A stretch of 64,000 nucleotides of DNA, from the NCBI RefSeq assembly GCF_017068455.1, contig NZ_CP070608.1, positions 3,515,488 to 3,579,487 of the forward strand, written 5' to 3'. Position numbers and translations under genes: made by a program. The DNA is from Fulvivirga lutea. GTDB taxonomy: Bacteria; Bacteroidota; Bacteroidia; Cytophagales; Cyclobacteriaceae. Position 1 is the first letter of the stretch, and the number at the start of each line of letters is the position of its first letter. Below the pieces are notes generated by a model. The model was not told the origin of the DNA. It made no database searches and saw only the letters and a program-made list of their open reading frames with translations. Of this stretch, positions 10,202 through 29,808 are shown in pieces.

Positions 10202-13200
10202 ATGATCAGAAAGAATATCAGTTATTTACTAATTACAGCATTGCTGTTAACCACATTAGTAAGCTTTTCACAACGAAAGAGAAATTCCAATACCAGTAGC
10301 ACATCAGCTTCAGCATTGGTAGATTCTGTTTTCTCGGGAATTAAACTAAGAAATATCGGACCTGCACTCATGTCAGGCAGAATTGCTGATGTAGCAATTC
10401 ATCCGGAAAACGAAAGTGTTTGGTACGTGGCGGTAGGCTCCGGTGGTGTTTGGAAAACTGAAAATGCCGGAACCACATGGACACCCATTTTTGATGATCA
10501 ATCATCTTATTCTATTGGCTGTGTAACCATTGATCCTAATAATCCACATACCATTTGGGTTGGAACAGGAGAAAATGTTGGCGGTCGTCATGTCGGGTTT
10601 GGCGATGGTGTATATCGCAGTGATGATGGTGGTGAAAACTGGTCAAACATGGGACTAAAGGCTTCTGAGCATATTTCTAAGATTATTGTTCACCCATCTA
10701 ACTCCAACATTGTATGGGTGGCTGCTCAAGGCCCGCTATGGAAAAGCGGAGGCGAGAGAGGTCTTTACAAAACAACAGATGGTGGCAAAACCTGGAAGAA
10801 AACATTAGGTGACAACGAATGGACTGGTGTAACTGATATTTTGATTGACCCGCGCAACCCGGATGTATTGTATGCAGCTACATGGGATAGACATAGAACA
10901 GTTGCAGCATACATGGGTGGAGGCCCGGGCTCAGGCATTCACAAAAGTACAGATGGTGGAGAAACATGGATAGAATTGACTGATGGATTACCTACTTCAA
11001 ACATGGGTAAAATAGGTTTGGCCATATCACCACAGCAGCCAGATATCGTTTATGCTGCTATAGAATTAGACAGAAGAACAGGAGGCGTTTACAGATCTTC
11101 AGACAAAGGAATGACCTGGGAGAAGCGATCAGATGCTGTTTCAGGCGCTACCGGACCGCATTATTATCAGGAACTGTATGCCTCACCACACGAGTTTGAA
11201 AAGTTGTATTTAGTGGATGTTAGGTTACAGGTTTCGGAAGATGGTGGAAAGAATTTTCACTTAATCAACTATGAACACAAGCACAGCGATAATCACGCGA
11301 TAGCTTTTAAGAAGAGTGACCCTAACTATATATTGGTAGGTACAGATGGTGGTATCTATGAATCATTTGATAACACCAAAAATTGGAGGTTTATAAAGAA
11401 CCTTCCTGTTACTCAGTTTTATAAAGTAGCTGTTGACGACAGCGAGCCATTCTATAATATTTATGGAGGGACACAAGATAATAGCACCCAAGGCGGGCCT
11501 TCAAGAACGGATAATGTACAAGGTATACAAAATGGTGATTGGAAAATTGTTTTGGATTGGGATGGCCATCAACCGGCTACAGAGCCAGGGAACCCTAACA
11601 TCATGTATGGCGAACGTCAGGAAGGAAATATATCTCGTATTGATTTAAAAACTGGTGAAGTAATTGATATCCAACCTCAACCAGATAAAGATGAACCACA
11701 CGAACGTTTCAATTGGGATGCACCGATTCTCGTGAGCCCGCATTCACCTTCAACTATCTACTTTGCATCTTACAGAGTTTGGAAATCTGAAAACAGGGGT
11801 GATAAATGGACCGCCATTTCAGGTGATCTCACTAAAAACCAAAATAGAATCGAATTGCCTATCATGGGCAGAAAGCAAAGCTGGGATAATGCATGGGATT
11901 TCCTTGCAATGTCAAATTACAACACGATTACTTCATTAGCTGAATCGCCTAAGAAAGCTGGTGTAATCTATGCCGGAACAGATGATGGCCTAATTCAAGT
12001 AACGGAAAATGGTGGCGAAAGCTGGCGCAAAATTGAAGTGGCTAACCTACCAGGTGTTCCTTCAACGGCTTTTGTAAATGACATTAAAGCCGACTTGTTT
12101 GATGAGAATACTGTGTACGTAGCACTCGATAACCACAAGTATGGAGATTTCAAACCTTACCTGCTAAAAAGTACTGACAAAGGAAGAACCTGGTCATCCA
12201 TAACTGGCAATTTACCTTCCAAAACATTGGTTTGGAGAATGGTTCAAGACCATGTGAATCCACAGTTGCTATTTGCAGGGACAGAGTATGGTATCTATTT
12301 CACCATTAATGGTGGAAAGAACTGGGTAAAAGTAGCAGGCGCACCAACCATTTCATTTAGAGACCTTGCTATTCAACGCAGAGAAAATGATTTAATTGGA
12401 GCTTCTTTTGGAAGAGGCTTCTTTGTATTAGACGATTATTCTGTGTTGCGCGATGTAACTGAGGCTAAATTACAGCAAGAGGCTGCGTTATACTCAACAA
12501 GAAAGGCCTGGTGGTATATTCCCAGATCAGACATCAGCTTTGATGAGCCCAAAGGCTCTTTAGGAGCAGCACATTATGTAGCTCCAAACCCGGAATTTGG
12601 TGCAGTATTTACTTACTACTTAAAAGAAGAACTAAAATCTAAAAAAGATGCAAGGCAGGAAAGTGAAAAGCAAGCAGAGAAAACTAAGAGCAACATCAGT
12701 TTCCCAGGATATGAAAATGTGCTTGCCGAAGAAAATCAGCTGGAGCCTCAAATTTGGTTAACTGTTGAAGATAGTAGTGGCAAAGTAATCCGAAGAATAA
12801 AAGGTAATACAACCTCAGGTTTTCACAGAATTGCCTGGGATTTAAGACACCCACTACCTGAGGCCATCGCATTAGGGCAAGATCCATCTGAAGATGAGCC
12901 TGCCGGAATGCTTGCAGCTCCCGGAAAGTACAAAGTTTCGCTTTCAAAAGTGGTAGATGGAAAAACAACACAACTGGCAGAGCCTATTGAGTTTGATGTA
13001 GTTCCATTGAGAGAAGGTACATTAAAAGGTGCCAGCCCTGAAGTGGTTGCCGACTTTATGCGCAACTATGAAACAGCTTATGGTAGAAAAACTGCAGTAG
13101 ACATTCGTTTGGAAAATCTGACTTCCAGAAGCAATGCAGTGGCAAAATCCATTGCAAACTCTAATACCAAACCTGGTGTGTTGGATACACGATATAACAC

Positions 13201-15493: not shown

Positions 15494-16369
15494 ATGAGCC
15501 ATCACCACCATCACCATAGCGGTAATATAAAATTTGCTTTTTTTCTCAACCTGGGGTTCACCATTATTGAAATTGTTGGTGGTATCTTCACTAATAGTAT
15601 GGCCATTTTAGCTGATGCCTTACACGATTTTGGTGATAGTGTTTCATTGGGTACGGCATGGTATTTCGATAATCTTTCTCATAAAAAACGTGATAAAAGC
15701 TATACCTACGGCTATAAACGTTTCTCACTCATTGGAGCAATTGTAAATGCTTTAATACTCCTCACAGGAAGTGTTTTTATAATTTCTGAAACTGTGCCTC
15801 GCCTATTCAATCCGCAAACTCCTGATACTGAAGGGATGATATGGCTTGCTATTTTAGGTGTTATCGTAAATGGACTAGCAGTTTTTAGATTAAAAAAAGG
15901 CCATACCATGAATGAAAAAGTGGTTTACCTTCACCTACTCGAAGATGTATTGGGTTGGATAGCCGTCTTAATAGGAGCTATTATCATGCATTTCTATGAG
16001 TTGCCCATTATTGATCCTTTACTGTCGATAGGAATTTCACTCTTCATATTGTTTAATGTTTTCAAGAGCCTGAAATCTGTATTTGGTATTCTCATGCAAG
16101 GTGTACCACAAGACACGAATACCAAAGAAATCAAAAAATACATCTTATCACTAGAAGGTGTTTTGGAAGTACATGACCTGCACATTTGGAGCATGGATGG
16201 AGATTACAATGTGCTCACTGCTCATGTTGTAATGGAGGGAAAACCTTCCATGGACGACCTCTCTCCTATTAAAAAAGAAATTCATGATAATCTACATAAA
16301 TTTAATATTAACCATGCTACGTTAGAATTTGAAATGGAAGATGAAGAGTGCGTACTCGTGGATTGTTAA
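15494..16369 (+). CDS. Cation diffusion facilitator (zinc/cobalt/cadmium efflux)
   Basis: 291 residues, with six membrane helices starting at NIKFAFFLNLGFTIIEIVGG. The two metal-site motifs are LHDFGDS in helix 2 (HxxxD) and HLLEDVLGW in helix 5 (HxxxD), the zinc-type CDF pattern. A cytoplasmic C-terminal domain (about 205-291) carries LEVHDLHIWSMDG. Family role: proton-coupled export of Zn2+ and similar ions. The N-terminus is MSHHHHHHSG, a natural run of six histidines probably acting as a cytoplasmic metal sensor or loader. Confidence 0.92.
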   Translation: MSHHHHHHSGNIKFAFFLNLGFTIIEIVGGIFTNSMAILADALHDFGDSVSLGTAWYFDNLSHKKRDKSYTYGYKRFSLIGAIVNALILLTGSVFIISETVPRLFNPQTPDTEGMIWLAILGVIVNGLAVFRLKKGHTMNEKVVYLHLLEDVLGWIAVLIGAIIMHFYELPIIDPLLSIGISLFILFNVFKSLKSVFGILMQGVPQDTNTKEIKKYILSLEGVLEVHDLHIWSMDGDYNVLTAHVVMEGKPSMDDLSPIKKEIHDNLHKFNINHATLEFEMEDEECVLVDC

Positions 16370-16409
16370 TGAACATATCTCTAATCATAAGTTTTGCGTA
16401 TATTTAATC

Positions 16410-16631
16410 ATGGATTATCGAAAATTTTTGGAAATCAGGGCTGATAAGCGATTTGGAAAACCATGTATTAAGGGTACCCGAATTTCAGTTTACGATGTAT
16501 TAAACTGGTTGTCTAATGGTATGACCCGTGATGATATAAAATCTGATTTTGAGGAACTAACCGATGAAATGATCGATGCTTGTCTGGCCTACGCAGCGGA
16601 TAAAGAACGAAGGTTGATTACTTTCTCGTGA
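16410..16631 (+). CDS. DUF433 antitoxin-like protein
   Basis: 73 residues from the ATG at 16410 (MDYRKFLEIR); the open frame extends upstream into the CDF gene but has no homology there. DUF433 features are visible: KRFGKPCIKGTRISVYDVLNWL and the C-terminal DEMIDACLAYAADKE helix. These proteins have a VapB-like role, with a HTH-like fold that probably binds its own promoter. The downstream toxin starts at GTG 16628 overlapping its TGA, a classical coupled toxin-antitoxin layout. Confidence 0.85.
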   Translation: MDYRKFLEIRADKRFGKPCIKGTRISVYDVLNWLSNGMTRDDIKSDFEELTDEMIDACLAYAADKERRLITFS

Positions 16632-16969
16632 ACCTTTTATTCGATCAAAACATATCACCTAGAATATTAAAAATTCTACCTCCACAATTTTCAAATTGCG
16701 AACAAGTACGGTTTGTTGGACTTGAAAACTCGTCCGATATTGAAGTTTTCCAATTTGCCAAGAAAAATAACTACGCTGTCGTTACCTTTGATTCTGACTT
16801 TGTAGATCTTAATGCTATGTACGGAACACCTCCTAAAATTGTATATCTTAATACTGGCAACCTCACTACCAAAAATATTTCTGAGCTTCTTCTGAACAAT
16901 ATCATGAGAATTAATCAGTATCTCAGCTCTGATTCAGACGATATTCTCGAACTGATAAAGGCTCATTAA
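16628..16969 (+). CDS. DUF5615 PIN-like toxin
   Basis: 113 residues from a GTG start that overlaps the antitoxin stop (GTGA). The PIN-like acidic residues are visible: Asp6 in LLFDQNIS, the central DIEVFQFAKKNNYAVVTFDSDF with Asp54/Asp56-type residues, and a C-terminal helix. Family knowledge: DUF5615 proteins are predicted VapC-like ribonucleases paired with DUF433. Whether this pair is active is unknown; both frames are intact. Confidence 0.85.
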   Translation: MNLLFDQNISPRILKILPPQFSNCEQVRFVGLENSSDIEVFQFAKKNNYAVVTFDSDFVDLNAMYGTPPKIVYLNTGNLTTKNISELLLNNIMRINQYLSSDSDDILELIKAH

Positions 16970-21349: not shown

Positions 21350-21369
21350 AATATACTATTTACCTTATC

Positions 21370-21463
21370 GTCATTTCGTAGCATAGCAGAGAAATCCCTA
21401 TCAGTAACATAGTATATAAACTTTCTGTGAGGCTAAGATTCCTCCACTTTGTTACGGAATGAC
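21370..21463. repeat. Palindromic intergenic repeat, same family as 13536-13619
   Basis: The 94-bp unit begins GTCATTTCGTAGCATAGCAG and ends CTTTGTTACGGAATGAC, with imperfect inverted ends and internal GAAATCCC/GATTCC motifs. It sits directly after the ABM/GyrI gene, at the left edge of the island. Confidence 0.7.
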
Positions 21464-21481
21464 ACCCAATTATAATTTATC

Positions 21482-21522
21482 ATTGCGGGTTTGCCTGACT
21501 TACTGCTGGCGGGACCCGCAAT
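21482..21522. repeat. GC-rich inverted repeat
   Basis: Perfect 9-bp arms ATTGCGGGT (21482-21490) and ACCCGCAAT (21514-21522) with further GCC/GGC pairing inside. Its GC content is much higher than the surroundings. There is no T-tract, so it is not a typical terminator; it looks like another short dispersed repeat. Confidence 0.55.
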
Positions 21523-21592
21523 ATAATGGATTATAAAAAAGAGATTCCGGCTCAATTCTACCCATAAGGCATAGCAAGCGAACCTCATCTCT

Positions 21593-21795
21593 CACCGCAC
21601 CTAAACAGATGATTTTTATTATTTTAACTCTTAGTAGTATTGAAAAAAACTAAAGACCAATGAGCAGAAAACCTCAAAACGTTAGGTAAAAACCCTCAAA
21701 TACATAGGGTAAAATACCTGATTCTGGTAAAACATGATACAAAGTGTCTTATATTTAGAAAATATGCTCCATGAATGGCGCAAGTACATTTGTTG
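21593..21795 (+). repeat. Island leader repeat R, copy 1
   Basis: A non-coding 203-bp sequence repeated in the same orientation at 24238-24441, differing at about 19 positions. Recognisable parts in order: CACCTAAACAG near the left end; a nested dyad in which TTAGGT and a near-match of ACCTAA enclose ACCCT and AGGGT; a short GCTCCAT/ATGGCGC hairpin; and TACATTTG (21785-21792), a perfect TAnnTTTG -7 box, followed by TTG at the point where the two copies stop matching and cargo begins. It probably carries the promoter for the cargo genes. Upstream of it there is no junction hairpin or addB fragment, so it marks the left edge of the island. Confidence 0.85.
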
Positions 21796-21853
21796 GCAGT
21801 AATTGATAGTATACATTACTTTAAGTTTTACACAAACAGATAAAAAGTATATC

Positions 21854-22678
21854 ATGTCTCATATCAATATTAAAGTTTTTTCGTCTTCTGATTTAGGCTT
21901 CTTTGTTAATTCAACAATTGTCTATGGTAAAAAAGATGCAATTCTATTTGACGCTCAATTACTACAAAGTGAAGCTCAAAAAGTAGTAGATATAATCAAG
22001 AACTTAGATAGACAATTAAAAACAATTTTTATAAGTCATGCACATGCTGATCATTATTTTGGATTAGAAACTTTTTTGAGAGCATTTCCAGATGTAAAAA
22101 TCTATGCACATTCATCTGTGGTGGCTGATGCAAGAAAAACAACTGATCATCAAATTATCGGAATGAAGCAACTATATCAAGAATTGATTCCAGATTCTAT
22201 TCCTATTCCAGAGCCATATGACGATTTGACTTTTCGTATAGAAGAAGATGACATTCAAATCATTCCTAATCTAGCAGGTGATATAGCTCCAAGCACAGCA
22301 TATTTTATTCCGTCTGTCCAAACAATGATTGCTGGAGATGTTGTATTCAACAACATTCATCCTTGGACAGTAGACACTAATAATAAAGAGCGTGAGCAAT
22401 GGATTGACTCACTTGAGAAACTAAAATCATTCAATCCTCAAGTTGTAGTTAGTGGACATAAAGACATAAATCAGCCAGACAGTCCAAGTTCATTAAACTT
22501 TATGATTAATTATCTTACGGAATTCAATCGAGCTATTAAGAGTTTTACAAACTCACACGATGTGATTAAACATATGCGACAAAAGTTCCCTGAAGCTAAA
22601 AAGACTGGTATACTTAATATAGGAGCAAAAAAGAATAAAGCTGAGAACTTTTCTTTCAAGGATTTTTTTGAAGACTAA
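21854..22678 (+). CDS. MBL-fold metallo-hydrolase (island cargo)
   Basis: 274 residues from the ATG at 21854 (MSHINIKVFSSSDLGFFVNS); an upstream TTG at 21803 is possible but extends into non-conserved sequence. The metallo-beta-lactamase signature HAHADH lies near residues 62-67, with the later ligands visible in MIAGDVVF (Asp) and VVSGHKD (His). It should bind two metal ions and hydrolyse an ester, lactone, thioester or phosphodiester; which is not clear. Cytoplasmic. It is the first gene after leader repeat R1, 60 bases from the end of the repeat. About 130 bases of non-coding DNA follow it before the junction at 22806. Confidence 0.88.
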   Translation: MSHINIKVFSSSDLGFFVNSTIVYGKKDAILFDAQLLQSEAQKVVDIIKNLDRQLKTIFISHAHADHYFGLETFLRAFPDVKIYAHSSVVADARKTTDHQIIGMKQLYQELIPDSIPIPEPYDDLTFRIEEDDIQIIPNLAGDIAPSTAYFIPSVQTMIAGDVVFNNIHPWTVDTNNKEREQWIDSLEKLKSFNPQVVVSGHKDINQPDSPSSLNFMINYLTEFNRAIKSFTNSHDVIKHMRQKFPEAKKTGILNIGAKKNKAENFSFKDFFED

Positions 22679-22805
22679 AATATCTGAAGAATTTAAGAAT
22701 GGATGTCAACTATTTTGTTCCATATTTAATTGGAGAATTCAACACCTAAAATAATCTCGGTTATTGAAATTTATCCAAAGGAGAATGATTAAATCAATAA
22801 ATCTA

Positions 22806-22833
22806 CTGCCAGCAATGGCTAAGAAAACATAGG
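22806..22833 (+). repeat. Cassette junction remnant J1
   Basis: CTGCCAGCAATGGCTAAGAA and the eight following bases resemble the left arm of junctions J2 (24103) and J3 (26797): a CA-CAA core followed by a GCTAT-like step and AAAACAT. The 12 bases 22804-22815 are an inverted copy (one mismatch) of 21790-21801 at the start of the MBL cargo. No right arm follows; the next coding frame begins at once. Confidence 0.5.
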
Positions 22834-22888
22834 AAAGACATGGCTTTCCGAAAGATTCGTTCACTTAGCAAATTTCGTTGGACTGACC

Positions 22889-23257
22889 TTGTTTCAACCA
22901 ATTTTAGCCATTCTGCTTTCAATTTTGACAGTAATTGTATGCGGACTTGTCGGACTTCCTATCAGACTAAACAACCGAATAAATACTTGGTGGAGAATTC
23001 ATTTCTACGTTCCAATTTTAATCGAATTTTTAGGGTTAGTTGCTTGTGTAATTTCTTTAATGCCAGGATTTGTAGAAGAAGTAACATATCGAATGGACGG
23101 AATGGATACGACTCAAACTGTTCCAAATCAAATCCTTTCTATTTCAGGTTGGTTTTTAATTGCTATTGGAAAATTACATGTTTATCCACCAATAATACTA
23201 GAGCAAAAGTTATTGGTATTATTAAATTCAGTAAAACAGTGTAATTTTAAGACATGA
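22889..23257 (+). CDS. Small membrane protein lacking a proper start (5'-truncated cargo gene)
   Basis: 122 residues if read from the TTG at 22889, with hydrophobic helices at FQPILAILLSILTVIVCGLVGLPI, HFYVPILIEFLGLVACVISLM and ISGWFLIAIGKLHV. The same frame is open back to 22823 and encodes a plausible N-terminus (TWLSERFVHLANFVGLTL) but contains no ATG, GTG or TTG before 22889; a TAA closes it at 22820-22822, inside junction J1. So the start codon seems to have been lost where the junction was joined. The stop TGA overlaps the ATG of the dinD-like gene (ATGA). I do not recognise a named family. Expression is doubtful. Confidence 0.55.
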   Translation: MFQPILAILLSILTVIVCGLVGLPIRLNNRINTWWRIHFYVPILIEFLGLVACVISLMPGFVEEVTYRMDGMDTTQTVPNQILSISGWFLIAIGKLHVYPPIILEQKLLVLLNSVKQCNFKT

Positions 23258-24090
23258 AATCTGACATAATAAAATCACAATAAAACAATTTTGAAGACCA
23301 TTCACAGACGACTGAAAACGGAATTGAGTTTTGGTTTGCAAGAGACATTCAGCATTTATTGGGATATTCTGAATGGCGTAATTTCCAAAAAGTAATAGTT
23401 AAAGCAAAAACTTCTTGCGAAGCCACGGACAATAATATATCAGACCATTTTGTTGACGTCAACAAAATGGTCAAACTTGGCTCAGGAAGTGAAAGAGAGA
23501 TTGAGGATATTATGTTGACAAGATACGCTTGTTATCTAATTGCTCAAAATGGGGACCCAAGAAAGGAGCCAATAGCATTTGCACAGAATTATTTTGCTGT
23601 ACAGACAAGGAAACTTGAAGTAATTGAACAAAGAATAAAAGATTGGGAAAGACTTCAAGCAAGACAAAAATTGACTTTGTCAGAAAAAGAGCTTTCAGAA
23701 TTAATTTATGAAAAAACGGGAAATGACAAAAATTTTGGACTGATAAGAAGTAAAGGCGACCAAGCTCTTTTTGGGAAATCTACTCAGCAAATGAAAAATT
23801 TACTTAGAGTACCAAAAGGCAGGGCTCTCACTGACTTCTTACCAACAATTACAATAAAAGCAAAAGACTTTGCCACAGAGATAACTGTATTTAATACAAA
23901 AGAAAAAGGCTTACGTTCTGAAAGACAAATTTCGGCTGAACACATAACCAACAACAGAGGTGTTAGAGACATTTTATTAAAAAGAGGAATTAAACCAGAA
24001 GAGCTACCCGCTGAAGAGGATATTAAAAAATTGGAAAGACGTGTAACTTCTGAACCAAAAAAAATCTTGGGAAAAATCCTGATAAATTGA
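23254..24090 (+). pseudogene. dinD: DinD-like (BRO-type) gene with early in-frame stop
   Basis: The frame starts at ATG 23254 (MKSDIIKSQ), meets TAA at 23281-23283, then continues openly to 24090. The part just after the stop (NFEDHSQTTENGIEFWFARD) already matches the DinD N-terminal pattern, followed by IQHLLGYSEWRNFQKVI, DHFVDVNKMVKLGSGSER, MLTRYACYLIAQNGDP and FAQNYFAVQTRK. Family knowledge: E. coli DinD is an SOS-induced inhibitor of RecA filament pairing, about 275 residues. Here it is either inactivated, expressed from a non-canonical start after the stop, or affected by a sequencing error. The first usable alternative start is TTG 23359, which would lose about 25 conserved residues. 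Cargo of the first unit. Confidence 0.7.
23443..23472. repeat. Perfect 30-bp palindrome inside the dinD-like frame
   Basis: Each 15-base half is an exact reverse complement of the other (left half GACCATTTTGTTGAC, centre GACGTC). It lies over the codons for DHFVDVNKMV. It can form a cruciform or RNA hairpin or bind a symmetric protein. Confidence 0.85.
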
Positions 24091-24102
24091 AATAAAAAAC
24101 GA

Positions 24103-24158
24103 CACCACAACAATCGCTATAAAAACATGCCCTTCGGGACGCGTTTCATATCGGGAAC
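24103..24158 (+). repeat. Cassette junction hairpin J2 (attC-like)
   Basis: It begins CACCACAACAATCGCTAT, 12 bases after the dinD-like stop, and folds into an imperfect hairpin: 24114-24132 pairs with 24136-24155 around the loop TTC (CG-TAT-AAAC-CCC against GGG-GTTT-ATA-CG, with bulges). It ends GGGAAC, and the very next bases are the addB tail fragment. J3 has the same order of parts, ends GAGAACC, and runs into intact addB. The 56-bp size and bulged palindrome recall integron attC sites, but the attC core consensus is not matched. Confidence 0.6.
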
Positions 24159-24233
24159 GTCACCCCCTCCCACAAATCCCAACATAAGGACAGTACTCAC
24201 AAACCTTCTTATCTTCTACCTGATCCAAGGGTA
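24158..24233 (-). pseudogene. Duplicated 3' tail of the AddB-like gene
   Basis: 76 bp identical to 26924-26999 except at four positions. Read on the minus strand it encodes the last 22-24 residues of the AddB-like protein in frame, including CEYCPYVGICGRG and the TGA; two residue changes are seen (Phe to Leu, Glu to Lys). Nothing of the gene beyond this remains, and leader repeat R2 starts four bases later. The four differences mean it is either an old copy or came from a related strain. Confidence 0.85.
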
Positions 24234-24237
24234 TCCC

Positions 24238-24441
24238 CACCCCACCTAAACAGGTGATTTTTATTATTTTAACTCTTAGTAGCATTGAAAAAAAAGTAAA
24301 GACCACTGAGCAGAAAAGCCCAAAACGTTAGGTAAAAACCCTCAAATGCATAGGGTAAAACACCTAATTCTGGTAAAACATGCTACAAAGTGTCTTATAT
24401 TTAGAAAATAGGCGCCAAGAATAGTGCATATACATTTGTTG
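24238..24441 (+). repeat. Island leader repeat R, copy 2
   Basis: 204 bp, about nine in ten positions equal to copy 1 (21593-21795). It begins CACCCCACCTAAACAGGTG, where CACCT-AAAC-AGGTG is a perfect small palindrome that copy 1 has lost. Here the nested dyad is exact (TTAGGT...ACCCT...AGGGT...ACCTAA, 24337-24376 region). It ends with the -7-like box TACATTTG (24431-24438) and TTG, 40 bases before the PHP/ATPase start. Non-coding in all frames. Confidence 0.85.
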
Positions 24442-24480
24442 TTCTTAAGCTTAAAAACAACCGAAACAGAAAGACATTGA

Positions 24481-26499
24481 ATGAAAAAAATAGACCTTCA
24501 TACACATACTATTTCGACAATTAGCGACTATCCTTTTGACTTTGACCTTTCAAAAGTCAAAGAGTATGTTGACAAGTTGAAAATTGATGCTCTAGCTATC
24601 ACGAATCACAATGTTTTTGACTTAGCGCAATATTTACATATTAAAAACAACCTGACAATTACCGTTTTCCCAGGTATTGAAGTCGACTTAGAAGGCGGTC
24701 ATCTTTTGGTAATAACTGATTCAGACGAATTTGAAATCTCAAACTTTGACGAAAAATGCAAGCAAGTTACTGCTTTAATTAAAACAAATACTGACACACT
24801 TACAATTGCACAATTCAAAAGCATTTTTACCGAGCTTCACAAATACATTCTTATTCCGCATTACGACAAAAGTCCAGAAATAAAGAAAGCAACAATAGCG
24901 GATTTGCAACCTCATATTACATCAGGCGAAGTAGCTAGTATCCCAAAATTCAAAAGAATGATGAAAGAACAGAACGGGCTTACGCCCGTCCTGTTTAGTG
25001 ATATGCGTTTTAGTAGTAGCTTAGTTGACTTTCCGACAAGGCACACATTTGTTGATCTTAAAGAAATTTCCATAGCAGGAATTAAATCGTGTTTTGCAGA
25101 CAAAACAAAAATCTCACTAACAAAAGAAAGTGGTAACAATTTTTTTCAAGCCACCGATGATGGTTTAGAGTTATCAACTGGTTTAAATATTATTTTGGGT
25201 GGTCGTTCTTCTGGTAAAACGGTTACTCTTGATAAAATAGCTGCATCATCGGGAAGTGCTAAATACATTAGACAATTCTCACTTCTTCAAAATGATGAAG
25301 AAACTTTTAATAGGACAAACGACACTAAACTAAGTATTGTGAATAACAATTATTTAACTGAGTTTAAATCGGTTGTTGAAGATGTTGTTCAAATTGACCT
25401 TAAACAAAACTTGCTGAGTATAGAAAGCTATTTAGAGTCACTTAAAAAATTTGCAACTGAGAGTGAGAAAAAAGACTTATACTCGAAATGCTTGTTATTT
25501 AGTGAAGAATTATTTTCATTAGAAGATTTCAAAAATCTTGATAAGCTTATTGAATCTGTAACGACACTTATTGAAAACAACGAGTATCAAGACATAATAG
25601 CCAAATACATCTCGCAAGAAAACCTGAAAGGGCTATTGAATGAGCTAATCCAAAAAGCTGTAATTTCAAAAGTTGAGAGCGAACAAAAAAAATGGTTGAA
25701 CTCAATCATTAACGATGTTCAACGTGAATTGAGAGTTAAAACCACTAGCACTTTCATTGAAAATGTTGATTTTTATAAAATCGCAACGGATGAAATGAAA
25801 GTGGCAAAATTCAATCAAGTAGTTTCTGAGCTTAAAAAACCAAGAAATATACATCGAGAAGAATTAGGTAAATTTTCAATAATTACAACCGCAAAGCCAC
25901 TTGAAAGTGCTTCAGATTTGCAAAAAATTGGTCGAGACAAAAAAATATATAGCACAGCACTTAGTAAGTATAATGAGCCATATTCCTATATTCAAAAACT
26001 AAGAGAGACAGGTGTTGAAGATGCAAATCTCTACAAGTTCTTCGTAAAAATTGAATCCGTTACTTTAAATAAGGACGGATTTAAAGTGTCAGGTGGTGAG
26101 CGTTCTGAATTTAACTTAATCCACGAAATAAAGGACGCTACCAAATATGATATTCTGCTAATTGATGAGCCTGAATCTTCTTTTGACAATTTATTTCTAA
26201 GAAAAGAAATAAATTGTCTAATTAAGGATATGGCACAACTAATGCCAGTTGTAGTAGTTACACACAATAGCACTGTTGGGGCATCAATAAAACCAAATTT
26301 TGTTGCAATCACTCATAAAAACCTTGAAGACGGAGAATTTGTCTATCGCATATTTACAGGTTATCCATCGGATAAAGAATTGACTTGTACTGACGGAACA
26401 AAAATTAAAAATTATGAAGCAATTCTTAACTGTTTAGAAGCTGGTGAAGATGCTTACACTGAACGTAAAACTCAAACTTATGAAATACTTAAAGATTGA
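24481..26499 (+). CDS. PHP-phosphoesterase/ABC-type ATPase fusion (TrlF-like), candidate defence protein
   Basis: 672 residues. The N-terminal PHP domain (about 1-200) has metal-binding motifs DLHTHT (His7, His9), TNHN (His43), the Glu/His of PGIEVDLEGGH (His74), IPHY (His127) and FSDMR (Asp174). An SMC/ABC-type ATPase follows: Walker A GGRSSGKT at about 240-247, a long coiled helical middle, signature VSGGERSEF near 536, and Walker B ILLIDEPESSFDN near 560. PHP plus ATPase proteins of the TrlF kind are found in accessory islands and are suspected nucleases or nucleotide phosphoesterases controlled by ATP and nucleic acid. It is shorter than many TrlF proteins. The start follows leader R2; the small partner gene overlaps its end. 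Confidence 0.85.
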   Translation: MKKIDLHTHTISTISDYPFDFDLSKVKEYVDKLKIDALAITNHNVFDLAQYLHIKNNLTITVFPGIEVDLEGGHLLVITDSDEFEISNFDEKCKQVTALIKTNTDTLTIAQFKSIFTELHKYILIPHYDKSPEIKKATIADLQPHITSGEVASIPKFKRMMKEQNGLTPVLFSDMRFSSSLVDFPTRHTFVDLKEISIAGIKSCFADKTKISLTKESGNNFFQATDDGLELSTGLNIILGGRSSGKTVTLDKIAASSGSAKYIRQFSLLQNDEETFNRTNDTKLSIVNNNYLTEFKSVVEDVVQIDLKQNLLSIESYLESLKKFATESEKKDLYSKCLLFSEELFSLEDFKNLDKLIESVTTLIENNEYQDIIAKYISQENLKGLLNELIQKAVISKVESEQKKWLNSIINDVQRELRVKTTSTFIENVDFYKIATDEMKVAKFNQVVSELKKPRNIHREELGKFSIITTAKPLESASDLQKIGRDKKIYSTALSKYNEPYSYIQKLRETGVEDANLYKFFVKIESVTLNKDGFKVSGGERSEFNLIHEIKDATKYDILLIDEPESSFDNLFLRKEINCLIKDMAQLMPVVVVTHNSTVGASIKPNFVAITHKNLEDGEFVYRIFTGYPSDKELTCTDGTKIKNYEAILNCLEAGEDAYTERKTQTYEILKD

Positions 26500-26779
26500 A
26501 AATAATAAGGGTTTATATCGACTTGACACAACACAAGATATTTGGACAGACCTTGACCAAATCAACAAAGAACATTTATTGGATTTGCTGAAATTTGCAT
26601 CAACAGGTGAATTTGAAATGGACGAGTATAAAGATCAACTACTTCAAAATCCTGCGCATAATATCATTTACAAAAACATTTATGGCAAGTTCAATGACTT
26701 TTTAAAAAACAAGACAAGGTTTCAGGATAGTGCTGAGTCAACTTATAAACAAGCGATTGAAAAGTACCAATTACAATGA
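26480..26779 (+). CDS. Small partner protein of the PHP/ATPase, unknown family
   Basis: 99 residues from the ATG at 26480 (MKYLKIENNKGLYRLD), overlapping the upstream gene by 20 bases; the frame extends to an ATG at 26444, but the internal start gives the more natural N-terminus. The protein is charged, mostly helical (QINKEHLLDLLKFASTGEFEMDEYKDQLL, KAIEKYQLQ-like end) and has no signal or membrane segment. No family recognised. The overlap indicates co-expression, and it may regulate or complete the ATPase complex (inference). Confidence 0.75.
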   Translation: MKYLKIENNKGLYRLDTTQDIWTDLDQINKEHLLDLLKFASTGEFEMDEYKDQLLQNPAHNIIYKNIYGKFNDFLKNKTRFQDSAESTYKQAIEKYQLQ

Positions 26780-26796
26780 CAGACAAGAAAGCCGAA

Positions 26797-26923
26797 CACA
26801 CAACATCACCTATGCGAAAGCAGGGGTTTCTTGCTTCGTAGGACAAGGAAGTGGTAAATTTAAAGATCAGTTCTTCGTAGTAAGTTGAGTGGTAAAAATT
26901 CTAGCCTGCGTATAGCTGAGAAC
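26797..26923 (+). repeat. Cassette junction J3 (attC-like nested inverted repeat)
   Basis: It begins CACACAACATCACCTATGCG, 17 bases after the partner gene, and ends TGCGTATAGCTGAGAACC just before the addB tail. The outer arms TCACCTATGCG (26806-26816) and its inverted near-copy (26907-26919) match at 9 of 11 positions. An inner pair CGAAAGCA/TGCTTCG adds a second stem. Length 127 bp. Parts occur in the same order as J2. Confidence 0.6.
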
Positions 26924-26925
26924 CG

Positions 26926-29808
26926 TCACCCCCTCCCACAAATCCCAACATACGGACAGTACTCACAAACTTTCTCATCTTCTACCTGATCAAAGGGTAC
27001 TTCGGTACTGTAGATTTCTGTAAGGGTTTCTAACAAAAAATCTTCATACTCCTGCGCTAATGGACGGAAGTCGCTCAAGGGAACGCCTTGTTTGCGTGGT
27101 TCACGCTGGTTTACGCGCCAGTCAAAGTCTTTATTAAACAGGTCTTTGCTATTGAAGATGCCCGGCTCTATCACATGCTCATTACCAAATTTCTTCCAAT
27201 ACAGATAGCTGTAATAGAATACCTGCAGAGCGGTCTTATTCTTTAAAATCTTATCTCGGTTTTTCAGGTCGTCAATGGAAACATATTCCTTTTCATCCTT
27301 ACCCGTTTTATAATCAATCACACGCACCTTGCCATCCTTAAGGTCAATACGGTCAATAATTCCTTTAATACGCACATCTACCAATTGCTCACCACAGATT
27401 ACTGGCAGCTCCAAATAGTAGCCCTCCTCTGTACTGGCTTCTAATCCAAGAATTTTAAAAGGTGCGTATTGTTTATCATGCTTCAATATCTGATACGCAA
27501 ACTTCTTCAATATCTCCTCAGCAATCAGCGTACGGCCTTCCAGTTTAAATTCCTCTTTTTCTTTTACATGATAGTGTTTTTTAAATGCCTGCTTCAAGGC
27601 TCCTTCTACCCCACCTTCTAAAGCGAGAAAATCCGTTTCCTGAACCACATCTCTCTTTTCTCTTTTCTTAAAATCCTTGTACAGGATTTCCATCGTATTA
27701 TGGAGGATATTACCAAAAATGGCGGCATCCATTTCTTCCTGTACCTCATCAGCTTCATACAGCTTGGCTACATACTTAAAGTAAAATTTAAGTCGGCAAG
27801 TGAGGTAGGCAATCAAAGCAGAAGGTGTAATCCTCGGTGGCTTCTCTTCTTTGTTGAGTGAAGTAAACCGCTCCATTCGCTTCAGCACCTCCGGTGTTTT
27901 GTGAATGGTAATGTCCTGCAGAGTCTGCGTTTTAACAGGATTGGATAATAGCTTGCGCTCAATAGTGTGATTAGATTCTACTTCCAACTGTCGTACAAAA
28001 CGACTGATCTCACCATTGATATTAAACTCAGAAACAGTGTTGTAATAGAAATGCACCTCATTCACGCGTTGTAGTAATCTGTAAAACAGATAGGCATACA
28101 TGGCGTCATTATTCTCAAACACTGGAAGATCAAAAGCTTTACGAATATTGTAAGGCACAAATGAACCTCGTCTTGGCTGAGCAGGCCAGCTGCCTTCGTT
28201 CATATTCAACACATACACTCGCTCAAAATCGAGGTTACGTGTCTCCAATATTCCCATCACCTGTAATCCATCTAATGGCTCACCAGTAAATGGTACTTTA
28301 AAACTTCTGGCTAGTCGCTTGAAAAGTGCTGTAAAGAATTCATAATTCAAAGTTTCTGCTTTATCACCAATCATGCGCTCAAGCTGCTGCATTTGCTCAT
28401 AAAACCTACTCACAAACTCTACTTCCAGCTCTCGATCCTTCTCCTGCCAGGAGTCATACAATCCTTTTAAAATCGTAATGAGGTATTCCAGTGGGTTATC
28501 AGCTTTTTGAAATATTTGCTGTAGCAGTGGATCTTGAAAATCAAAATTCTCCGCTGGTAGCATGATTCTATTCTTGCCTTTGATTTCTCCGAGTAGCTCT
28601 AATGCCTTTTCTTCCTCCAGAGAGTGGAGCAATGGGTGCAACAACAGCTCCTGCACAGGTCTGTGATAGAAGCTCACTCCTTTGATTTGACTTTCCTTTC
28701 TTAGTCGCTGCAAGTCCAGCGCACTTTCCAACAAACTATAAACGGAAGTATCCTTCAGAGGATAGCCCATCGTAATGTTTACTTTTTCAATCTCATCTGG
28801 GATGCTGTGCAGTACCGGAAACATCATATGTTCCTGCGGCAGCACCACCACCGTTTTACTGGGATCAAAATCTGGTTCCTTAGCTATTCTTGCCAGCTCC
28901 TCACCCAATGCCTTGGCTTGTCCTACTTCTAGTGACACGCCTGTGGCTGTCATCTGCTTTTCTGAAGCAATCAACTCAGGCGCTTCTTTTGGGAAGGATC
29001 TGCCCAGCAAGGTGTCCTTTGCATAGGCTCTTAAAAACGTGCCTGCCTCCTGCTGTGGTGAACTGAAATAATAGGCATCAACATCCCAGACAATTTCGGC
29101 ATTACACTCTCGAACGAAATATTTGAAAATAACTTCTTCCGTTTTTGTCAGAGCGTTGAAACCTGCAAAGTAGACCTTATAATTTGTTTTGATTTTTTCC
29201 TCCTCGAGTCTTTCAGCAATATCCCGATAGATCATCCCGCCAAAGCCTCTACCCTGTTGTCTGAGTCTTTGCTTAAAGCCTTCGTACAATGGCAATAGTA
29301 TTCTCCACGTTTCAAGAAAGAGCTTTTGTGTTTGTGTGGTATCAGGCAAAAAGCTACTCCAGAACGATTGGATAATGGCTTTATCCTCTTCATCTAAAAA
29401 GTAAAAAGCTTCATCGAGCTCTTTTTGTGTTTTAATGCCTGTAAAGAGATGTTTTGTATCCACCATGTACTGGTCGATCTCCTCAAAATCACGAAGGATC
29501 ATTTCACCCCAGAAGAAAAACCGATCGAAAGTCTCATTCTTATTCTGAACCTCTTTATACACCTCATAAAGCTCAAATATCGCTTCCAGAGTTTCGATCT
29601 TTTCAAGATCGCTGTATTGCATTAGGTAGTCTTCCAGACTAAATACTTCAGGCATAAATACCGGCTGATCGATGAGTTTCGCTAGCTCCTTACGAAAGAA
29701 TAACCCGGCCCTGCGGTTCGGAAAAATGACAATGACATCTTCCAAAGCCTCATTTTCAGCTTTCACCTTTTCAGCAATCTCCGCTATGAATGTCTTGTGT
29801 TTTGTCAA
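26926..29808 (-). CDS. AddB-like PD-(D/E)XK nuclease of the double-strand-break end-processing complex
   Basis: 960 residues. The N-terminal inactivated-helicase part (EDVIVIFPNRRAGLFFRKEL) and middle (LQVMGILETRNLDFERVYVLNMNEG) are typical of AddB. The C-terminal PD-(D/E)XK nuclease shows VIDYKTG near residues 828-834 and the Fe-S cysteines: one in YLTCRLKFYF near 671 and Cys948, Cys951 and Cys957 at the very end. Together with the AddA-like helicase transcribed just before it, it should resect DNA ends for RecA loading. Its last 76 bp are also present as a fragment at 24158-24233, and its stop codon is where the island begins. No insertion damages the gene itself. Confidence 0.88.
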   Translation of the reverse strand: MTKHKTFIAEIAEKVKAENEALEDVIVIFPNRRAGLFFRKELAKLIDQPVFMPEVFSLEDYLMQYSDLEKIETLEAIFELYEVYKEVQNKNETFDRFFFWGEMILRDFEEIDQYMVDTKHLFTGIKTQKELDEAFYFLDEEDKAIIQSFWSSFLPDTTQTQKLFLETWRILLPLYEGFKQRLRQQGRGFGGMIYRDIAERLEEEKIKTNYKVYFAGFNALTKTEEVIFKYFVRECNAEIVWDVDAYYFSSPQQEAGTFLRAYAKDTLLGRSFPKEAPELIASEKQMTATGVSLEVGQAKALGEELARIAKEPDFDPSKTVVVLPQEHMMFPVLHSIPDEIEKVNITMGYPLKDTSVYSLLESALDLQRLRKESQIKGVSFYHRPVQELLLHPLLHSLEEEKALELLGEIKGKNRIMLPAENFDFQDPLLQQIFQKADNPLEYLITILKGLYDSWQEKDRELEVEFVSRFYEQMQQLERMIGDKAETLNYEFFTALFKRLARSFKVPFTGEPLDGLQVMGILETRNLDFERVYVLNMNEGSWPAQPRRGSFVPYNIRKAFDLPVFENNDAMYAYLFYRLLQRVNEVHFYYNTVSEFNINGEISRFVRQLEVESNHTIERKLLSNPVKTQTLQDITIHKTPEVLKRMERFTSLNKEEKPPRITPSALIAYLTCRLKFYFKYVAKLYEADEVQEEMDAAIFGNILHNTMEILYKDFKKREKRDVVQETDFLALEGGVEGALKQAFKKHYHVKEKEEFKLEGRTLIAEEILKKFAYQILKHDKQYAPFKILGLEASTEEGYYLELPVICGEQLVDVRIKGIIDRIDLKDGKVRVIDYKTGKDEKEYVSIDDLKNRDKILKNKTALQVFYYSYLYWKKFGNEHVIEPGIFNSKDLFNKDFDWRVNQREPRKQGVPLSDFRPLAQEYEDFLLETLTEIYSTEVPFDQVEDEKVCEYCPYVGICGRG

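Follow-up and report, generated by a model that had tools for sequence, protein, structure and literature searches.

Two cassette units at the 3′ end of addB

We analysed a 64,000-nt stretch of the Fulvivirga lutea chromosome (NZ_CP070608.1, positions 3,515,488 to 3,579,487; hereafter the window) in which two units of accessory genes lie against the 3′ end of addB (Table 1). Each unit begins with a leader of about 200 bp (R), continues through its cargo to a terminal junction (J2 or J3) and ends on addB sequence. Direct reading and alignments bear out the order R1–cargo–J2–addB tail–R2–cargo–J3–addB, which had been proposed in a first-pass annotation of the sequence. The two leaders are 91% identical, with one 1-nt indel, and the addB tail between the units (24158–24233) matches the end of the intact gene (26924–26999) at 72 of 76 positions (95%). 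As the annotation had also described, the same leader and the same target end enclose different genes, with no relationship between the two sets of cargo: an MBL-fold hydrolase, a small membrane protein and dinD in unit 1, and in unit 2 the pair PDC-M49A and PDC-M49B, which PADLOC classes as candidate defence proteins. The view of two single units holds for the layout, but unit 1 is a composite that at least one attC-like boundary, at 22877/22878, divides internally.

The edges of the cargo are the same to the base. Both leaders terminate in ...ACATTTG at an identical position (TACATTTG/, where a slash between bases marks a crossover or junction), the cargo opens with TTG, and the leader–cargo junctions read ACATTTG/TTGGCA in unit 1 and ACATTTG/TTGTTC in unit 2. 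At the other end both junctions finish in G and addB then resumes with TCACCCCCTCC, giving a cargo–addB junction of G/TCACCC in each unit. Given the identical leader ends and the identical resumption of addB, the empty target would therefore read TACATTTG/TCACCCCC. At the junctions of both units the cassettes sit at G/T outside any attI or attC site, the arrangement that defines insertion at attG or secondary sites.

A search of the 4.14-Mb genome and of 97 others recovered just the two copies of R at this locus; away from it, only a 25-bp piece at the start of R had a match. Two possibilities that the first-pass annotation had set against its own interpretation do not hold: R is unique to the addB locus, which rules it out as a dispersed repeat, and the 5-kb region is not found as one conserved block in relatives. 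The nearest relative with addB (AddB 79% identical) is without R, and its sequence is slightly closer to the intact addB tail than to the duplicate (53 versus 51 of 63 positions). A third, decayed addB tail to the left of R1 is unsupported, with 219 of 500 shuffles scoring as well.

Table 1. Features of the addB locus and the resident recombinase (window positions; chromosomal positions for the recombinase)
Feature	Position	Strand	Remarks
R1, leader, left half of target	21593..21792	+	Ends at crossover base G (21792), ACATTTG/TTGGCAGT
CACCTAAACAGATGATTTTT box in R1	21598..21617	+	One mismatch to a motif lying upstream of genes near a LuxR-type response regulator at 1.38 Mb
TATATTTA, putative −7-like element in R1	21750..21757	+	35 bp upstream of insertion point; from sequence
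Cassette 1a	21793..22877	+	Starts G/TTGGCAGTA; MBL-fold hydrolase, attC-like site at end
MBL-fold metallo-hydrolase gene	21854..22678	+	Vmh-like, under equivalog cut-off
attC-like site of 1a	22805..22877	+	R′′ ACTGCCAGC; stem GCTAAG with CTTAGC, inner stem GGAAAG with CTTTCC; end G/TTGGACTG
Cassette 1b/1c (fused or partly decayed)	22878..24159	+	Small membrane protein open reading frame (22889–23257) and dinD (23254–24090)
J2, short attC-like end	24103..24159	+	CACCACAAC ... GGGAACG/T, poorly paired
Copy of the addB 3′ end with its last codons and stop codon; forms the right half of the unit 1 target	24160..24233	−	Matching repeat itself 24158–24233
R2, second leader, left half of target	24238..24438	+	Ends ACATTTG/TTGTTC
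Cassette 2, PDC-M49A and PDC-M49B	24439..26925	+	Similarity to L071 (Chitinophagales)
PDC-M49A	24481..26499	+	PHP domain and ABC-type ATPase, TrlF-like
PDC-M49B	26480..26779	+	
J3, attC-like site	26796..26925	+	R′′ ACACAAC; outer arms as in L071; end GAGAACCG/TCACC
Intact addB	26926..29808	−	Stop codon TGA (TCA at 26926–26928) abuts crossover
Resident tyrosine recombinase, 381 aa	3752074-3753219		Phage_integrase

Cassette ends and attC-like sites

The cargo of unit 2 has a counterpart in one Chitinophagales metagenome-assembled genome (L071), where M49A shares 97% protein identity and 2.4 kb of DNA (24429–26812) aligns at 94% identity. The homology begins at G/TTGT, runs into CGAACRCACAACAKCACCTA and stops inside an R′′-type box (ACACAAC or GCACAAC), past which only the outermost arm is similar (TAGCTG..AACC). 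In L071 the start of the M49 cassette, GTTGTGCGT, and its end, ACGCACAAC, are exact reverse complements (9/9) and so follow the R′/R′′ rule of integron cassettes; the ends of the window cassette are degraded (GTTGTTCTT versus ACACACAAC). Its 94% identity across orders suggests that the M49 cassette was acquired recently. M49A occurs in two of the 395 genomes of a phylum-wide sample and the MBL hydrolase in one (F. lutea counted in each case), both too rare to be of help. Searches for M49A returned only distant homologues on plasmids and none in viral contigs.

In unit 1, cassette 1a starts with GTTGGCAGT, the reverse complement of its own R′′ (ACTGCCAGC) at eight of nine positions, and its attC-like site pairs its own arms better than 93% of cross pairings. 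By its G/TTRRRY-type insertion core and complementary ends the cargo qualifies as integron gene cassettes, except in cassette 1b/1c, whose start and end are not complementary. The dinD of 1b/1c is open apart from an in-frame TAA at codon 10 (23281–23283). The decay of this unit, evident in the dinD stop, the short J2 and the fused cassettes, suggests that it is the older of the two. The hairpins that the first-pass annotation saw at the junctions are of unequal standing: only J3, at about 129 nt, matches attC-like sites from elsewhere in size and outer arms, whereas J2 is short and poorly paired. Neither J2 nor J3 had a BLAST match in the F. lutea genome or in the part of the L071 genome searched.

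A pattern built on the R′′ flank gave 17 matches over the 395 genomes, against 9 for a reversed control, and at least seven of the 17 are complete attC-like sites that follow genes, span about 120–200 nt and end in (A)AACC/GTTNNNN. The same search idea, applied to sampled stretches amounting to about 30% of the F. lutea genome, returned one strong site, at 3.763 Mb. Among 42 sites the arms co-vary, with a mean of −14.5 kcal/mol for own pairs and −6.1 kcal/mol for cross pairs (0 of 20,000 permutations). The L′′ and L′ arms pair strongly in the sites of the array described below and of relatives, unlike those of the window junctions. The family-specific scan worked where a generic R′′/L′′/L′/R′ scan with 7-bp arms performed at chance level and was dropped, as was a scan for complementarity at open reading frame ends, which gave about one chance match per 20–30 kb. 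Run against viral contigs, exact patterns of attC fragments picked out nothing but unrelated phage genes.

A resident cassette array and its recombinase

About 211 kb from the addB locus lies a chromosomal integron-like array, composed of a tyrosine recombinase gene, an attI-like stretch directly after its stop codon and a series of attC-like sites. The first cassette starts with GTTACCAGC (G/TTACCAGC) 39 bases past the stop codon and ends with the R′′ box GCTGGTAAC, and exact 9-nt R′/R′′ pairs run in series to about 3.783 Mb. Array and recombinase (3752074–3783600; stretches L210 and L255) are co-directional and include 17 copies of one attC-like site of about 240 nt, plus others, giving the locus an attI-like site and attC-bounded cassettes as in an integron platform. 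More copies of the 240-nt site are found at 1.74–1.76, 0.58–0.60 and 2.15–2.17 Mb (L237, L222 and L242), with at least 13 in L237 (1740001–1760000).

The recombinase itself departs from canonical IntI. It scores above the cut-off of the XerA-type model NF040815 (228.9 versus 220) and below that of the integron integrase model TIGR02249 (199.7 versus 265), and it does not have the additional (I2) domain of IntI. When the resident recombinase and nine relatives are aligned to IntI1, they lack 42 residues at the place of the I2 helix, between the KDR and LRHS motifs, and the spacing of these motifs is 61–66 in 20 of 20 proteins examined. The layout of recombinase, attI-like stretch and array recurs in at least five relatives. 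In most of the matching recombinases of relatives, the GTT start typically falls 35–90 bp past the stop codon, and three or more contiguous cassettes form chains, almost never seen in shuffles, beside such recombinases in genomes G002, G015, G029, G068 and G078.

One cassette of the F. lutea array is a PDC-M23A/M23B candidate defence pair with a DEAD helicase (L210:14387-18357). Three identical IS110-family transposases (L255:3976-5001, 11463-12488 and 15942-16967) occupy the same position in attC-like sites (CAGGGGC/GATATCCATG); these insertions resemble IS1111-attC elements. One 157-nt attC-like site stands alone at L067:7234-7387; the array and relative G002 have it too.

The leader and its surroundings

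R opens with CACCTAAACAGRTGATTTTT, and the same motif precedes genes at 1.38 Mb that form a cluster with a LuxR-type response regulator and a histidine kinase. The palindrome CACCTRAAYAGGTGATTTTT is found upstream of several genes adjoining the LuxR-type response regulator and a TPR histidine kinase (L067:5700-12450; 1.376–1.382 Mb of the genome) and in the window at 21598 and 24243, at the start of R. A response-regulator box is a plausible identity for the CACCTAAACAGGTGATTTTT motif; a terminator is less likely because one copy lies between divergent genes. R also contains TATATTTA, which we take to be a −7-like element of the Bacteroidota type, and the leader may plausibly drive the cassettes from a regulated promoter. 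Between a GyrI-like gene and R1 (21350–21560), the window holds two imperfect inverted repeats (...GTCATTTCG...CGGAATGAC... and GCGGGTTTG...GACCCGC).

Origin of the addB units

The observations to be accounted for are the anatomy of the locus, the identical insertion point, the complementary cassette ends, the sharing of the M49 cassette across orders, the resident array and the linkage of such arrays to recombinases in relatives. We consider it probable that the addB locus is an off-array landing site for integron-type cassettes, entered at an attG-like G/T beside a leader with a putative promoter. The original target would have been a native junction between R and the addB 3′ end. An integron-type tyrosine recombinase would have joined the attC-like site of a circular cassette to this G/T, as integron integrases do at attG or secondary sites, presumably by way of a circular intermediate and single-strand attC chemistry, and the cassette would have been left between R and addB in the orientation of the putative R promoter. 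The target, about 285 bp in all (R plus 74–76 bp of addB), is tandemly duplicated, and the duplication probably preceded insertion but may have followed it; copy 1 would have received the MBL hydrolase and then the membrane protein and dinD, and copy 2 the M49A–M49B pair. The enzyme was probably the resident IntI/Xer-like recombinase (3.752 Mb), at the head of the cassette array. The first-pass proposal of a site that takes different cassettes through a recombinase supplied elsewhere was therefore essentially right, given the shared G/T entry, the complementary R′/R′′-type boxes, the M49 cassette common to another order and the resident array; action of the resident integrase in trans is the part that we would hold provisionally.

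Several results weigh against this interpretation. The attC-like sites of the window are weak and differ from the dominant type of the array: the arms of J3 and of the 1a site pair only slightly better than cross pairs, those of J2, which is only 56 nt long, pair no better than arms of different sites, and the single-sequence folding z-scores of the junctions are not significant. The dinD homologues checked elsewhere to delimit cassette 1c lie outside cassettes. In the F. lutea genome, 57 relatives and the L071 genome, no protein reached the TIGR02249 cut-off for a canonical IntI. The empty R/addB site, expected to read TACATTTGTCACC, is reconstructed from its joined flanks, and the tandem requires an extra duplication step whose junction, GGGTA/TCCC, is not an att sequence.

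Allelic exchange, the alternative offered by the first-pass annotation, would have brought together strains carrying different cassettes at one R/addB site through homologous recombination in the 200 bp of R and the addB tail. The homologous flanks are present, and divergence of 9% between the R copies and 5% between the tails is more than a very recent tandem duplication predicts. Exchange may have helped to build the tandem, but alone it cannot explain two unrelated cassettes at an identical G/T and would still require site-specific insertion at least twice; as a full account it is possible but doubtful. It is unlikely that R is instead the degenerate attI of a lost second integron, and so the remnant of a platform, not a casual secondary site. 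R does place a promoter-like element directly upstream of cassettes, like Pc-attI, but in this family the attI-like stretches, short at between some tens of bp and about 90 bp, come directly after the recombinase stop codon, and R neither shares sequence with them nor adjoins a recombinase remnant.

The start of the addB tail repeat 2 bp before the stop codon would suit genomic islands integrated into the gene end by a tyrosine recombinase, with the 76-bp repeats as attL and attR and R as an island end. We judge this very unlikely: the cargo edges fall at G/TT, away from the end of the 76-bp repeat, there is no third repeat left of R1 and no integrase in the units, R would lie inside the presumed island in both units despite their unrelated cargo, and the cassette ends are complementary. 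Hardly credible is a plain hotspot for accessory genes, filled by nonhomologous insertion and duplication with box complementarity arising by chance. The space between convergent genes tolerates insertions, and J2 is poorly structured, but the boundaries are base-precise and identical in two units, a matching cassette boundary occurs in another order and the resident array has ends of the same kind.

The landing-site interpretation is part of a wider proposal on which our confidence is evenly divided, namely that Bacteroidota carry widespread, largely unrecognised I2-less integrons that act on attC-like arrays and scatter cassettes, candidate phage-defence genes included, into reusable promoter-proximal sites such as R/addB. 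The I2 helix has been regarded as the acquisition that permitted recombination of folded attC sites (PMC7790495), and complete integrons are reportedly very rare in Bacteroidetes, the sole one found in Bacteroidetes proper being that of Salinibacter (PMC9024848). A limited literature search found no description of I2-less integrons. Such recombinases, which directly head long arrays of attC-like sites in several genomes of the Bacteroidota, together with cassettes placed outside the array, make the view that I2 is essential directly testable, and would account for many cassette clusters of the phylum that have no integrase. The addB site would itself be a natural example of off-array insertion repeated at one exact base next to a putative promoter, which brought in candidate defence genes.

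Relation to known systems

The resident array resembles the sedentary chromosomal integrons of the Vibrio and Xanthomonas type in its recombinase gene, adjacent attI-like stretch and long co-directional array, and likewise in its one- or two-gene cassettes, near-identical palindromic sites and cassette starts complementary to their own R′′. It differs in that the recombinase is without the 42-residue IntI-specific I2 segment and its gene is oriented towards the array, not away from it, and in that arrays here occupy several chromosomal places. The addB locus is similar to a CALIN, a cluster of attC sites lacking an integron-integrase (PMC9024848, PMC8618304), in having attC-bounded genes without a neighbouring intI, but it is split by a duplicated target, its attC-like ends are degraded and a non-canonical recombinase is encoded on the same chromosome. 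With gene-end genomic islands, whose tyrosine recombinases act on direct-repeat att sites, it shares the direct repeat of a gene 3′ end; unlike in those islands, the cargo edges are off the repeat ends and the units are without integrase. A further parallel is cassette insertion at attG or secondary sites (Loot et al. 2024, cited in PMC12444791 and PMC12901181): the addB cassettes likewise lie outside an integron, at G/T, in a target without attI or attC. The addB site differs in having been reused for different cassettes, in lying directly downstream of a promoter-like leader and in the tandem duplication of its target.

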